A stretch of 37,415 bases of DNA, from contig JALVTJ010000021.1 of NCBI GenBank assembly GCA_027036005.1, positions 1 to 37,415 on the forward strand, in the 5' to 3' direction. The first letter of the stretch is position 1, and every line of letters starts with the position of its first letter. The notes under the pieces are model-generated. The model did no database searches. It had not been told where the DNA came from and worked only from the letters and a program-made list of their open reading frames with translations. The DNA comes from Nautiliaceae bacterium (GTDB lineage Bacteria; Campylobacterota; Campylobacteria; Campylobacterales; Nautiliaceae). Position numbers and translations under genes: made by a program. This document shows positions 27,856-32,482 of the stretch, piece by piece.

Positions 27856-28725
27856 TTACTTTAATTTTGCCAAATCTTTTTTTGCCAAAGTAGCATATTT
27901 GGATTTAGGATAATCGGAAATAAGTTTTTCAAAAGAAAGTTTTGCCGCTTTTTTATTATTTAAATACAAAAACGCTTTTGCGCTATGATATAAAAGTCTG
28001 GATGTAAAAGAGGTTTTTTTAGAATATAAATCCACGCTTTTTTTATAATATGCAAGAGCCTCTTTATAATGTTTTTCTTTATATGCTATTTCGCCCAAAT
28101 AAAAAGCGGAAGTCGCTGGCATATAATTTTTTGAAAGTGTATAAGAAAAATATTTTTTCGATTCATTAAGATTACCATTAAAAAAATCTTTTCTTGCTAT
28201 TGCAAAAGCTTCTTTAAGAGAAAGAGGTTTTTGTTTGTTTAATCTTTTAACAATTTCAAAAATGCTTTGTTTTAATGTTTGAAAATTCTGATTTTGTATT
28301 TTTACTATCTCTTCTATACTTTCCTTAATTGAGGTCAAATTATTTTCCATTGAATTAATTTTCGTCTTTAAATTATCAATCTCAATTTTTAAATTATTAA
28401 TTTGAGATTGCGTTTGATTATATTCTTTTTTCAATGTTACTATATCATTCATAGCACTATCTATTTCATCAATTACTGTCGGAAATGCAGATAATTTATC
28501 ATTTATTATCTCATTATAATTAGAAAGTTTAAGTTTTATTTTTGCAATATCATTTTGAATATTTTGAATATTGTTATTCAATTTATTAATATTTTTTTTA
28601 TTTAAAAGTATTGCTTTTTCATCAGTAGTTAAACCATAAGGCGTACTTGAATTAAGATTACCCGCATTAAAAGGATTAACATCGGCAAAAATCAAAAGAG
28701 GGATTAAAATAAGAAATTTTTTCAT
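27856..28725 (-). CDS. cpoB: CpoB/YbgF-like Tol-Pal accessory protein
   Basis: 289-residue periplasmic protein with a signal peptide (MKKFLILIPLLIFADV), a long coiled coil at about residues 35-160 rich in Asn/Ile/Lys heptads, and a C-terminal block of TPR-like helices (about 170-289: AFAIARKDFFNGNLNESKKYF, YYKKSVDLYSKK, FEKLISDYPKSKYA). This is the CpoB layout, a factor linking Tol-Pal to septal peptidoglycan synthesis in E. coli. The coiled coil here is longer than in E. coli. The start codon and Shine-Dalgarno (AAGGA) lie in the 3' arm of a perfect inverted repeat, so translation may depend on pal. Confidence 0.88.
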   Translation of the reverse strand: MKKFLILIPLLIFADVNPFNAGNLNSSTPYGLTTDEKAILLNKKNINKLNNNIQNIQNDIAKIKLKLSNYNEIINDKLSAFPTVIDEIDSAMNDIVTLKKEYNQTQSQINNLKIEIDNLKTKINSMENNLTSIKESIEEIVKIQNQNFQTLKQSIFEIVKRLNKQKPLSLKEAFAIARKDFFNGNLNESKKYFSYTLSKNYMPATSAFYLGEIAYKEKHYKEALAYYKKSVDLYSKKTSFTSRLLYHSAKAFLYLNNKKAAKLSFEKLISDYPKSKYATLAKKDLAKLK

Positions 28726-28751
28726 ACAATTCCTTTTTTTAGGAATTGTAT
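28724..28751 (-). promoter_or_regulatory. Perfect mRNA hairpin enclosing the cpoB ribosome binding site
   Basis: On the minus strand an 11-base arm ATACAATTCCT (28751..28741) is followed by six A and the exact complement AGGAATTGTAT (28734..28724). The AGGA Shine-Dalgarno and the first two bases of the cpoB ATG are in the 3' arm. The 5' arm begins 5 bases after the pal stop codon. There is no U-run, so this is not a classical terminator. Its geometry fits ribosome-site occlusion relieved by a ribosome ending on pal. Confidence 0.75.
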
Positions 28752-28756
28752 CTAAT

Positions 28757-29335
28757 TTATGGTAGATATGTAAAATTATCTCTTCTGTTTAATCTCCAAC
28801 ACCATTTAGCATGAGCTGTACATACGGGATTTAATTCTCCGTAACTTATTATTGTAAGTTTTTTAGGATTGACTCCGAGTTTAATTAAAGCATTTTTAAC
28901 GGTATTTGCCCTTTTCAATCCCAAGGCGTAATTATACTCTTCCGTTCCCCATTCATCACAATTTCCTTCAATTCTAATTGTATAATTTGAAGAATTCGAT
29001 TTTAAAATTTTTGCAAGTTTTTCAACTTTTGGCCATTGGTCAGGTCTTATATTATATTTGTCAAAATTAAAATATATCACAATATTTGCTACCTTTTTGG
29101 CAAATTCTTGATTATTGGTAATTGCACTTACACTCGCAGCTCCCGGAATAGTTTGAGTTTGAACTTCGGCATTTTGAGTGTTTACACTTTCATTGGCATT
29201 TGATTGATTTTGTTCACTTTGCATTTGCATTGTATTATTGTTTGCATTTTGAGCATTTTCCAAACTTGGCTGTTTTGAACATCCGGTAATTAAAAACACT
29301 GCTGCAACAGCTGTAAATAAGATTTTTTTTCTCAT
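28757..29335 (-). CDS. pal: Peptidoglycan-associated lipoprotein Pal
   Basis: 192-residue outer-membrane lipoprotein. The signal peptide MRKKILFTAVAAVFLITGC is acylated at Cys19. A low-complexity Asn/Gln linker (residues about 25-65) leads to an OmpA-type peptidoglycan-binding domain: YFNFDKYNI, then RIEGNCDEWGTEEYNYALGLKRANTVKNAL and SYGELNPVC. GNCDEWGT replaces the GHTDERGT of enterobacteria, as in Campylobacter Omp18. Three cysteines in this domain (GNC, NPVC, KWC) might form a disulfide. It ties the outer membrane to the wall and works with TolB. AAAAAAAGGAG precedes the ATG. The final segment WRLNRRDNFTYLP is slightly shortened. Confidence 0.95.
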   Translation of the reverse strand: MRKKILFTAVAAVFLITGCSKQPSLENAQNANNNTMQMQSEQNQSNANESVNTQNAEVQTQTIPGAASVSAITNNQEFAKKVANIVIYFNFDKYNIRPDQWPKVEKLAKILKSNSSNYTIRIEGNCDEWGTEEYNYALGLKRANTVKNALIKLGVNPKKLTIISYGELNPVCTAHAKWCWRLNRRDNFTYLP

Positions 29336-29355: not shown

Positions 29356-30519
29356 TTACCAGTCAAACGATTGCAAAATTTTAGGCAATCGATAGTAAAA
29401 AATTTTGTTTTCATTTAAACGTATTATACCAATTTTACTGTAAAAATGCTCTCTTTTTATAAACATTATTGAATTTCCATCAACTGAAAAGTTAGGAAAC
29501 ATATTTTGCCCTCCGAATGTAAGCCTTTTAAGCGAATCATCATTTTGATTAAGCAAAAACAGATTAAATGTATTATCGCCAAATGCCTTATTCGTCTCCC
29601 TAGTGCTTACAACCATCAAATTTTTATATGTATCTACACCTACTTGATTTTTACCTTGATAAAGCACCCTTGTAATGTCTCCTGTTTTTAAATCTTTTTG
29701 AAATACATAAGGCAAACCGTATCTATCGGATATAAACACTATTTTATTACCCCAAAATTTACCGCTTACATCTATTCCCGGATATTTCGTTATTTGAATT
29801 AATTTATGATTTTTATACCAATAAACATCAGGATTTCCTTTTGGAGCCAATGTTAACAAAATTCCTTTTTTTGAATTCACATCAGAAACTATTAATAATC
29901 CTTGTGATGAAAGAATTTTTTGAAGTTTACCAGTATAAATATTAAATTTATATAATGTAGGAAGCCTTTGATACTTTGTAAAATAAAAACTCGTTTGATT
30001 TACATCAGCCCATCTCGGAAAAATATTTAGCCCCCCTGTGATTAGCAGTTTTTTATATGATAGTGTATAATCTGACAAATAAATGGACGCCTCCTTGGGA
30101 GCAGTTAAAATAGAATAAACGACTTTTCTAATTAAAAATTTGGCACTTGGCATATTAAAATATTTATTTATATCATAAACGGCTCTATGTACTAAAAAAG
30201 GAAAATATGCATAAGTTGTGGATTTATATCTTTTTTCCAAGACTAAATTATTATGTTGTAAATATTTAACATCCAAAAGTTTTTTGGATTTATTATAAGA
30301 TATATCAAACACCATAGCAGTATTATTTGTTTCATTGGTATCGTATTTAACATTAAAATGATTCAAAACAGTAAAATCCATTTTTAAAATTTTTTCAACA
30401 GGTTTTACACCTCTATAATTCACAATAATATTAGGCATATTTTCTAAATATTTCGTTATAACAAGTTCTTTTGAATATAATCCTACCAAAAATAAAAATA
30501 TTAAAAAAATTTTTCTCAT
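29356..30519 (-). CDS. tolB: Tol-Pal system protein TolB
   Basis: 387-residue periplasmic beta-propeller protein that binds Pal and is the target of the TolQRA motor. The signal peptide is MRKIFLIFLFLVGLYSKEL. An alpha/beta N-terminal domain follows to about residue 140. The rest consists of WD40-like propeller blades with the TolB motifs, such as GLNIFPRWADVNQ, APKGNPDVYWY, KIVFISDRYGLPYVF and GQNMFPNFSVDGNSIMFI. It is somewhat shorter than the usual 410-430 residues. Its ATG overlaps the tolA-like stop by 4 bp, and pal starts 20 bp downstream. Confidence 0.93.
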   Translation of the reverse strand: MRKIFLIFLFLVGLYSKELVITKYLENMPNIIVNYRGVKPVEKILKMDFTVLNHFNVKYDTNETNNTAMVFDISYNKSKKLLDVKYLQHNNLVLEKRYKSTTYAYFPFLVHRAVYDINKYFNMPSAKFLIRKVVYSILTAPKEASIYLSDYTLSYKKLLITGGLNIFPRWADVNQTSFYFTKYQRLPTLYKFNIYTGKLQKILSSQGLLIVSDVNSKKGILLTLAPKGNPDVYWYKNHKLIQITKYPGIDVSGKFWGNKIVFISDRYGLPYVFQKDLKTGDITRVLYQGKNQVGVDTYKNLMVVSTRETNKAFGDNTFNLFLLNQNDDSLKRLTFGGQNMFPNFSVDGNSIMFIKREHFYSKIGIIRLNENKIFYYRLPKILQSFDW

Positions 30520-31202
30520 TTGTTTACCTTTGTTTGAAATTTTATCGTTATATCTATATTTTTGTTATATTTTATATTTTTTATTCCTTCTATCAATTCT
30601 TTTTGTTTATCTATATTTAAATTGCTATCCAAAATTAAAACATTTATATTTCCATTATTATTTATAAATTTAATTATAGCGTATTCACCCGGAATAAATG
30701 AAATATTATTCCAAATTTCGTAAATTTTATTAATCAGTTCATTAATTTTTCCTTTTGAAACATTTGAATGAGTGTTATATGAAATGTTTATATTTATATT
30801 TATATTTTTTATCTTATTCAATTGTTTAAAAATCTGACCTTTAAATCTGCTCATACTATTCTGTTTTTCCAAATTTACTTTTTTTGTCGAAATATTATAA
30901 TGGACATTTTTAAATATATCATTAAAATTTACATTTCCTCCTTTTGTAAAAGAAGATTTTGAACCAATTTTCAATTTTTTTGTATTTTTTTTAGGTTTTG
31001 GAATTTTTTTTGCAGCTTTTGTATGGGTTATAACATTCCTTTTAATTAAACGATTTTGATTTAAATTGAAATTTTTAGTAACTATTGCCGTATGTATATA
31101 AACAATATTTTCTTTTTGAGGTTTACGATTAAAAATAAAATAAAAAAAAAGCAAAACCAAACCATAAGAAATCAAAGAAAGAACAAAAGCTACAAGTTTC
31201 AT
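30516..31202 (-). CDS. tolA: TolA/TonB-like energy-transducing protein
   Basis: 228-residue protein with one N-terminal membrane helix (about residues 2-22) and a basic periplasmic stalk (KAAKKIPKPKKNTKKLK). It ends in a TolA/TonB-type domain (ELINKIYEIWNNISFIPGEYAIIKFINNNGNINVLILDSN, residues about 150-195). It should carry motion of the TolQR proton channel to TolB/Pal. The stalk is far shorter than in E. coli TolA and lacks the long Ala-rich helix. The region around residue 130 has alternating Asn-Ile residues (NININIS). Position between tolR and tolB supports the TolA role over TonB. Both ends overlap neighbours by 4 bp. Confidence 0.8.
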   Translation of the reverse strand: MKLVAFVLSLISYGLVLLFFYFIFNRKPQKENIVYIHTAIVTKNFNLNQNRLIKRNVITHTKAAKKIPKPKKNTKKLKIGSKSSFTKGGNVNFNDIFKNVHYNISTKKVNLEKQNSMSRFKGQIFKQLNKIKNINININISYNTHSNVSKGKINELINKIYEIWNNISFIPGEYAIIKFINNNGNINVLILDSNLNIDKQKELIEGIKNIKYNKNIDITIKFQTKVNK

Positions 31203-31576
31203 TTAGTAAGTAATCCTATCTGGGTAAATCCGGTTTTTACGACAGATGAATATATTTTCATAAAAAGAGAATATTTTATATCTTTGTCCGCTGCTATATA
31301 AACAAGTGAATTTTTATTATAATTTCCATATTTCAGATTAAAATTTTCCAAAAAATTTTTCACCGGCATCCTTTGATTATTAACTAACACTTCTGCGTCT
31401 TTTTTAATAATTATTGTTATGGTTGCTTTTTTCATAGCCGGAGTTTTTTTGCTTCCCTGCGGCAGATTGACCGTTCTTTCTTGATAAGTGGAAACACTAA
31501 CAGATACCATAAGTATTGCAAGCAAAACAAGCATTATATCTACAAAGGGCGTAATGTTTAATTCTGGCTTTTTCAT
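31199..31576 (-). CDS. tolR: TolR/ExbD-family proton-channel subunit
   Basis: 125-residue protein with a short cytoplasmic N-terminus and one membrane helix containing the essential Asp: NITPFVDIMLVLLAILMV (Asp13). The periplasmic domain includes VNLPQGSKKTPAMKK and IAADKDIKYSLFMKIYSSVVKTGFTQIGLLTK, as in ExbD/TolR. With TolQ it forms the proton-driven stator. The family includes ExbD, but the gene order tolQ-R-A-B-pal decides the assignment. ATGA overlaps occur on both sides. Confidence 0.93.
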   Translation of the reverse strand: MKKPELNITPFVDIMLVLLAILMVSVSVSTYQERTVNLPQGSKKTPAMKKATITIIIKKDAEVLVNNQRMPVKNFLENFNLKYGNYNKNSLVYIAADKDIKYSLFMKIYSSVVKTGFTQIGLLTK

Positions 31577-32121
31577 TTGCTAAGATATATATCTCTTTGC
31601 ATTTTTAGTGTTGATATTAAATCGTCAATCTTTTTTGAAAGTATTTGATGAAAACTATATGCAGGCACCGCCGTAATAATACCGACTGCCGTTGCGATTA
31701 AAGCATCGGCTATTGATGGAGCAATCATATTAATAGTAGTAACGCTTTGCATACCATTAAATGCACTAAGTATTCCTATAACAGTTCCGAAAAGGCCTAT
31801 AAACGGAGCTGTTGAAGCTACTATACTTAAAAACACAAGTCCATTTCCTGCTTTTATTTTAGCCGCTTGAATACATGCATCAAAACTGTATTTATTTATT
31901 TTTTCTGATTTTTCAATACATGTTTTTAGTGAAGAATTTATAGAAAATGTATTATTTAAAAGTAAAGAATTAAATGCTTCTTTTTCTTTTTTTATCCAAG
32001 ACGAAAGATAAAACAATTTATAAAAAAATACAAAAAAAACGAAAAAAAGATAAATTCCGAGCCAACCCAAAACTATAATATTTATAGGATTGGCTAAAAA
32101 TTTAGAGATTTCTGGCAACAT
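31573..32121 (-). CDS. tolQ: TolQ/ExbB-family proton-channel subunit
   Basis: 182-residue inner-membrane protein with three helices, at about residues 10-30, 93-120 and 135-160. The conserved segment GNGLVFLSIVASTAPFIGLFGTVIGILSAFNGM and the pore helix PSIADALIATAVGIITAVPAYSFHQ are diagnostic of TolQ/ExbB/MotA proteins. The ATG at 32121 is preferred over 32157 because the extra residues (MHWWRQFLQRLR) are just the out-of-frame end of atpC. It still overlaps atpC by 20 bp and has no clear Shine-Dalgarno, so it probably depends on translation of the ATPase epsilon subunit. Confidence 0.92.
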   Translation of the reverse strand: MLPEISKFLANPINIIVLGWLGIYLFFVFFVFFYKLFYLSSWIKKEKEAFNSLLLNNTFSINSSLKTCIEKSEKINKYSFDACIQAAKIKAGNGLVFLSIVASTAPFIGLFGTVIGILSAFNGMQSVTTINMIAPSIADALIATAVGIITAVPAYSFHQILSKKIDDLISTLKMQRDIYLSK

Positions 32122-32482
32122 TCTCAATCTTTGCAGAAACTGTCGCCACCAATGCATCCGAATCGGTAGCGTCTTTTAATAATTGTTTTGCTTTTTCTAT
32201 TGCTTGTGCGATTGAACTTTCGTCAGGTCCGGCAATAGGAACGGCTCCATCAACCAACACGTTTACATGATCGGGTGTAACTTCCACATATCCCCAATTT
32301 ATTGCTATTATTTCCTTTTTTCCATCGGATTTTTTAATTGTTATAACTCCGGGTTTGAGATTGGTTACCAAGGGAGAATGGCCGTCAAGAACACCGAATT
32401 CCCCTTCACTTCCCGGAAATGTAGCTTCTGTTATTTCATCTTTAAAAACCCTTCCAAGAGGTGTAACGATATCAAGTTTCAT
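32102..32482 (-). CDS. atpC: ATP synthase F1 epsilon subunit
   Basis: 126-residue epsilon subunit, whose N-terminal beta-sandwich (LDIVTPLGRVFKDEITEATFPGSEGEFGVLDGHSPLVTNLKPG) is complete and well conserved. The C-terminal two-helix part is present but short (IAQAIEKAKQLLKDATDSDALVATVSAKIENVARNL). Epsilon couples the rotor to F1 and can inhibit ATP hydrolysis. It is the last gene of the atp operon, 9 bp after atpD, and its end overlaps tolQ by 20 bp. Confidence 0.96.
   Translation of the reverse strand: MKLDIVTPLGRVFKDEITEATFPGSEGEFGVLDGHSPLVTNLKPGVITIKKSDGKKEIIAINWGYVEVTPDHVNVLVDGAVPIAGPDESSIAQAIEKAKQLLKDATDSDALVATVSAKIENVARNL

Follow-up and report, generated by a model that had tools for sequence, protein, structure and literature searches.

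A conserved hairpin over the start of cpoB in Nautiliaceae: a probable read-through insulator built on a predicted internal promoter

Several genes are known whose ribosome-binding site (RBS) is hidden in one message and free in another. In the transposons IS10 and IS50, read-through RNA folds over the start of the transposase gene, whereas the element's own transcript does not. These transposons guard against activation from outside, unlike cpoB, the subject of this report, whose start lies within an operon. Among phage genes, I-TevI, segB, soc and e of T4 and mobE of Aeh1 combine a hairpin-hidden RBS with an internal late promoter (PMC2988022). The RBS of the T4 genes is hidden only in the long transcripts that come from upstream promoters; transcripts from the adjacent promoter are too short to fold. 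In Bacillus subtilis, a hairpin has been proposed to block translation of sigG from RNA reading through from the spoIIG operon, and this hairpin cannot form in RNA made from the sigG promoter itself (PMC5942855). A different arrangement is coupling by RNA unfolding, as in rpmI-rplT and the coat-lysis pair of MS2, in which structure covers the downstream RBS of a polycistronic RNA (PMC12548453).

The locus described here, a hairpin between pal and cpoB in Nautiliaceae, resembles each of these in part. As in the T4 genes and sigG, the RBS would be hidden in the long message and free in the short one. However, the T4 cases are phage genes timed by late transcription, whereas the Nautiliaceae cases are bacterial housekeeping genes at many loci, with an ordinary sigma70-type -10 (or a sigma54-type site). 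The sigG hairpin exceeds 20 bp, belongs to one sporulation gene of a different phylum, and is accompanied by a second small RBS hairpin in the gene's own transcript; at cpoB, unlike at sigG, the 5' arm overlaps the -10. As in coupling by RNA unfolding, structure covers a downstream RBS in polycistronic RNA, but there the upstream ribosome is the switch, whereas at cpoB the position of the promoter is the likely switch and the distance from stop to arm is not conserved. The mechanism itself is thus already known. Its apparent repeated use at promoters inside the gene runs of a bacterial family is something we did not find described, and the open-access literature yielded no description of such an element in tol-pal operons or in Campylobacterota.

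The hairpin at the pal-cpoB junction

The window, that is, the whole stretch of 37,415 nucleotides analysed, carries tolQ/R-like genes, a TolA-position gene, tolB, pal and cpoB, all co-directional on the minus strand. The genes upstream of pal (29356..32157, identified as open reading frames with domain matches) would be the source of read-through into cpoB: ExbB/TolQ (31573-32157), ExbD/TolR (31199-31576), the TolA-position gene (30516-31202) and tolB (29356-30519). The open reading frame of pal (28757..29335, with its TAA stop at 28759-28757) encodes an OmpA-family peptidoglycan-associated lipoprotein, matching Pfam OmpA at 1.2e-18 and NCBIfam Pal_lipo at 7.2e-34, the latter slightly under the cut-off. 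That of cpoB (27856..28725, with its ATG at 28725-28723) is ybgF-like, encodes a coiled coil and TPR repeats, and matches NCBIfam tol_pal_ybgF at 3.3e-10, under the cut-off.

Read on the minus strand, the junction runs from the end of pal (CCA TAA) through a 5-nt spacer, ATTAG (28752..28756), a 5' arm, ATACAATTCCT (28741..28751), a loop of six A residues (28735..28740) and a 3' arm, AGGAATTGTAT (28724..28734), to a G. The arms pair in a perfect 11-bp stem (the hairpin spans 28751-28724), and the 3' arm holds the Shine-Dalgarno (SD) sequence AGGA (28734-28731) together with the first two bases of the start codon. The preliminary description of this DNA had reported the same perfect repeat, loop, SD position and 5-nt distance from stop to arm, and the coordinates agree. 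It had also held that the hairpin would hide the cpoB SD and part of the AUG in messages that pass through pal; the fold, the conservation and the opening energies given below all bear this out.

Folding confirmed that the hairpin forms on the mRNA strand (z = -3.4), and none of 200 shuffled sequences was equally stable. Indeed, the longest perfect SD-covering stems among 413 sampled starts from two Nautiliaceae genomes were those of cpoB and its ortholog, at 11 and 12 bp, and a stem of at least 11 bp was found at 18 of 20,000 random sites. The cpoB hairpin is not a chance match. Its stem includes three GC pairs and is followed by GAAAAAA on the mRNA strand. A reading as an intrinsic terminator was dropped, since there is no GC-rich stem and no U-run 3' of the stem on that strand; at this junction the mRNA strand showed no terminator-like site.

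A pattern search that left the inner sequence variable matched 18 of the 21 Nautiliaceae genomes, exactly once each, and the reversed pattern, used as a control, gave 0 matches in the same genomes. The copy is at the start of cpoB in every case in which the surrounding locus was read. Outside the family, only two more matches were found among 399 genomes of the order, and their inner sequence is unrelated. In the arms, 21 of the 22 examined positions are invariant (mean pairwise identity 0.99); of the fourfold-degenerate sites in pal, only 1 of 23 is invariant and 22 vary (identity 0.53). The CpoB proteins of these relatives are 47-64% identical to that of the window. Because it occurs as a single copy in 18 of 21 genomes, with near-invariant arms beside drifting fourfold sites in pal, the hairpin is under selection.

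The sole change in the arms is a C to T in two sister lineages, which keeps a G-U pair, and in 17 of 18 relatives a purine faces the U of the AUG. The preliminary description had named compensatory change as a check on the pairing. At pal-cpoB the arms are too conserved to covary, with one-sided changes and no two-sided ones; the check succeeded at other genes of the same design, described below. Between the arms lie 6 to 10 nt, a variation more easily accommodated by a loop than by a DNA dyad. Of the three family genomes without the pattern, G005 has no detected cpoB; in G015 the junction reads TAG-TTAAAGGGATTAG-ATG and lacks both the hairpin and the -10 described in the next section; the third is G010. 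In G010 the gene order is reversed, with cpoB before pal rather than after it (L028 / L047).

A predicted promoter within the 5' arm

The sigma70 promoters of the Campylobacterota C. jejuni and H. pylori have the -10 motif gnTAnaAT, with transcription starting 4-8 nt downstream and no -35 element (PMC3847290). The 5' arm and its flank, GATACAAT, fit this motif, a match that the preliminary description had missed. The predicted -10 hexamer of an internal cpoB promoter, TACAAT, occupies 28745..28750 on the minus strand within the 5' arm, and the last base of the spacer, a G at 28752, supplies the G of the motif. In the motif as a whole, GNTACAAT, this G lies outside the stem and is unable to pair, and it is kept in 17 of 18 relatives. 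The remainder of the spacer drifts in both sequence and length, so that TACAAT lies 5-7 or 16 nt from the pal stop. Moreover, the compact layout of the junction is that of first genes in the sampled Nautiliaceae stretches, where the -10 usually lies some 20-30 nt ahead of the ATG and an A-run and the SD come next; the distance from -10 to ATG at cpoB fits.

Other observations are less favorable. A generic promoter scan returned TTTACA-18-TACAAT, which is not above chance on its own. At sampled first-gene starts TATAAT is enriched as a -10 and TACAAT is not, and a C-to-T change within the hexamer, which would turn it into TATAAT while preserving a G-U pair, was never seen among the relatives. 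These last two points count against the promoter reading.

A start 4-8 nt past the -10 would land in the A-rich loop (28735..28740; predicted by the spacing rule in PMC3847290), and the internal transcript would lack the 5' arm. With a start in the A-run, its predicted 5' end is AAAAAGGAATTGTATG. As judged from sequence, then, the junction holds a candidate promoter whose transcript would omit one half of the hairpin. In the long transcript, the predicted fold places the stem over the SD and into the start codon.

The two messages were compared by the predicted cost of opening the SD and AUG, which we preferred because the mean unpaired probability of the SD bases is too coarse (0.04 in the internal transcript at 37 C). 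In all 18 species the cost at 60 C is 6.2-10.2 kcal/mol for read-through RNA and 1.3-2.3 kcal/mol for the internal transcript. At 37 C the internal transcript costs 4-7 kcal/mol to open, which would leave its leader partly structured. The hairpin itself, in its common forms, has a predicted energy of -5.6 to -6.4 kcal/mol at 60 C and about -3 to -4 kcal/mol at 70 C.

Together, these predictions suggest that the cpoB element is probably a read-through insulator built on an internal promoter. The promoter's -10 would lie in the 5' arm and transcription would begin in the A-rich loop, giving a short cpoB message that has no 5' arm and whose SD would be free. Read-through RNA from tol-pal would carry both arms, form a hairpin of 11-12 bp over the SD and AUG, and be poorly translated for cpoB. 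The dose of CpoB would then be set mainly by the gene's own promoter, independently of tol-pal read-through. The hairpin, its conservation, the -10 match and the energy gap, along with the recurrence and compensation reported below, are observations of sequence and prediction; from them we infer promoter activity, the start site, the silence of the read-through RNA and a physiological use. The near-invariance at cpoB would follow from every arm base being under two constraints, with TACAAT acting both as -10 and as partner of the SD-to-AUG spacer, and TCCT as partner of the SD.

A frozen accident of the -10 and SD was considered as the sole cause of the conservation and dropped: TCCT after the -10 and ATTGT after the SD are equally invariant.

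Hairpins of the same design at other genes

Recurrence was assessed in about 1,200 starts, taken from stretches of two genomes (G008 and G011) and from the window. We counted perfect SD-covering hairpins of <=-5 kcal/mol at co-directional gaps of 18-70 nt with TAnAAT at -36 to -14. With these hairpin thresholds, which were our own choice, and with crude calling of open reading frames, 8 of the 71 co-directional junctions that have a -10 carried an SD hairpin, against an expectation of 0.5 obtained by exchanging halves among genes. Of the 190 first-gene starts with this -10, none did. The difference between 8/71 and 0/190 has a Fisher p of 2e-5, which becomes 3e-4 with the three cpoB copies collapsed and 1e-3 without cpoB. 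One sample served both to find these junctions and to test them, so the independent test comes from comparing orthologs.

One such junction precedes a small gene located after atpB, behind a sigma54-like GG-N10-GC site. Here the hairpin, about two dozen nt past the atpB stop, is present in 5 of 5 species. Of its 9 pairs, 5 show two-sided changes, and pairing holds in 44 of 45 cells (counted from hand-aligned arms; MAFFT misaligns these short hairpins). The arm at this gene does not overlap a -10 hexamer, which leaves the outer pairs free to change together, as they do. The hairpin would shield the gene from atpB read-through. The gene (L189-L193), of unknown family, was detected with the cut-off used in 5 of the 21 Nautiliaceae genomes.

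Downstream of flagellin, a flagellin-modification-like gene combines a -10 with a following SD hairpin in 15 of 18 species examined, including a C-G to G-C replacement. A hand count over 14 species gave 94 of 98 cells paired. The exceptions, L199, L202 and L209, have a hairpin, no -10, and an SD that is uncovered as called. In these three, among them the window's own genome (G000), the hairpin is a different one, CTCAAAAAGC/GCTTTTTGAG, and the start codon may be mis-called.

Elsewhere, presence of the hairpin follows the distance to the upstream gene. The gene for a UvrD/Rep-like helicase has one in 9 of 9 cases with a co-directional upstream neighbor within 32 nt (eight at <=-6 kcal/mol; the ninth is weak, at -4.3), and all 5 cases with an upstream gap of >=45 nt lack it. 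Likewise, the M48 protease gene has it in both cases with gaps of 26-33 nt and lacks it in other contexts. An exception is a thioesterase ortholog (L167), which has a -10 and a 25-nt gap and no hairpin. In all cases examined, the SD-pairing bases lie upstream of the expected start, and the opening costs of the two transcripts differ by about 5-10 kcal/mol at 60 C.

Genomes of other families were sampled too. One of another Campylobacterales family (G037) gave 3 of 16, against 0.25 expected; G023, at 57% GC, showed no excess and the AT-rich G028 was at chance. The G037 loci L257, L261 and L267 have a -10 and an SD hairpin at co-directional junctions, e.g., GCTACAATCTCCTAAAAATATGGAGGAGATTGGATG.

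We lean, with some reserve, toward regarding these hairpins as a general class of insulator at promoters inside gene runs, found in Nautiliaceae and at least one other Campylobacterales family. Its most conserved member would be cpoB, and others would include the sigma54-type gene that follows atpB and the flagellin-modification gene downstream of flagellin. Its members would be evolving hairpins, unrelated in sequence, with their SD-pairing bases between the -10 (or the sigma54 -12) and the start site. Translation of each gene would depend on messages from its own promoter, to the exclusion of read-through from its neighbors.

Some other starts in the sample are worth recording. At L112:5309, a second gene with a gap of 74 has a -10 inside the arm and its AUG in the stem (TACAATGCCGTAAAAAAAGGCATTGTATG). 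Divergent pairs (L080-L099 and the window) often have compact, near-palindromic promoters with facing, overlapping -10 boxes (e.g., accttttttgaTAAAATtatacaaaaaaaggt), each running directly into an A-run and SD. The start of a dnaJ-like gene in the window (divergent, gap 147), GGTATAATTCCAAAAAAATTTTAGGAGTTATAATG, has a -10 region that complements the SD-start region with one G-U pair; having no co-directional neighbor, it is a possible counter-example to the read-through rationale.

Competing readings and consequences

The preliminary description had assigned the hairpin a different main purpose, translational coupling, in which cpoB would be silent until the ribosome ending pal opens the 5' arm, and the CpoB:Pal ratio would be held. 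On such a reading an internal promoter would be absent or irrelevant. Coupling by RNA unfolding is well documented (PMC12548453). At this locus, moreover, the hairpin begins 4-6 nt past the pal stop in 13 of 18 relatives. A terminating ribosome has a standard footprint of about 9 nt after the stop, and we modeled it by treating that many nucleotides past the pal stop as covered. The opening cost at 60 C then drops from 6-10 to about 3-5 kcal/mol in the short-spacer species (2.8-4.8 kcal/mol in these 13). In the other five, however, 15 nt separate the stop from the arm, and the footprint makes little difference to the cost (6.0-9.1 kcal/mol). Because the drop is confined to the 13 short-spacer species, coupling to pal would be partial at best, and the reach of the ribosome into the arm is not conserved.

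The design is anchored to the downstream start and the -10, not to the upstream stop. Coupling is also implausible for the same design after atpB, before a sigma54-type gene, and it leaves unexplained the conserved G outside the stem and the joint loss of hairpin and -10 in G015. We therefore judge coupling unlikely to be what the element is for. As a secondary effect it may operate through partial opening of the stem in the 13 short-spacer species, with hardly any opening in the remaining five. The related claim that cpoB is translated mainly when pal is runs nearly opposite to our prediction, under which cpoB would be uncoupled from read-through and be expressed from a start of its own. What stands of the first reading, then, is a real, selected, SD-hiding hairpin; coupling as its main purpose finds no support.

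Considerably less probable is a DNA palindrome, either a regulator's operator or a symmetric bidirectional promoter, of which the RNA hairpin would be a by-product. Near-invariant arms and the presence of TACAAT on both strands would suit such a site, as would the frequency of facing, overlapping -10 boxes at divergent genes of Nautiliaceae. However, an inter-arm distance that varies over several nucleotides is poor for a rigid dyad, there is a single copy per genome, and the hairpins of other genes are unrelated in sequence and carry compensatory changes. Moreover, transcription from an antisense -10 would enter pal on the opposite strand, where there is no gene.

We give still less credence to a hairpin that protects, processes or terminates the 3' end of pal mRNA. 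It lies close behind the pal stop, and a weak terminator-like call was made on the opposite strand, but no U-run follows the stem on the mRNA strand, the hairpin keeps its place relative to the cpoB SD and AUG rather than to the pal stop, and at other genes the hairpin is lost in relatives whose upstream gene is distant. Least credible of all is an RNA thermometer opening at high temperature, the preliminary description's other suggestion: the stem over the SD is AU-rich and Nautiliaceae are thermophilic, but the stem is perfect, needs a predicted 6-10 kcal/mol to open even at 60 C and should be stable to 70 C, an Rfam scan of the window gave no match, and loops and stems vary across the class without a common melting point.

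If insulation of an internal promoter from read-through is the correct reading, the packed gene runs of small genomes would be transcriptionally fused yet translationally separate, and would be so without terminators. Operon predictions based on spacing would then misjudge co-expression, as for cpoB with tol-pal or the flagellar-type gene with atpB. A repeated, covarying set of such hairpins on the chromosome would make a general layer of bacterial gene organization out of an arrangement known so far from single phage genes and sigG.
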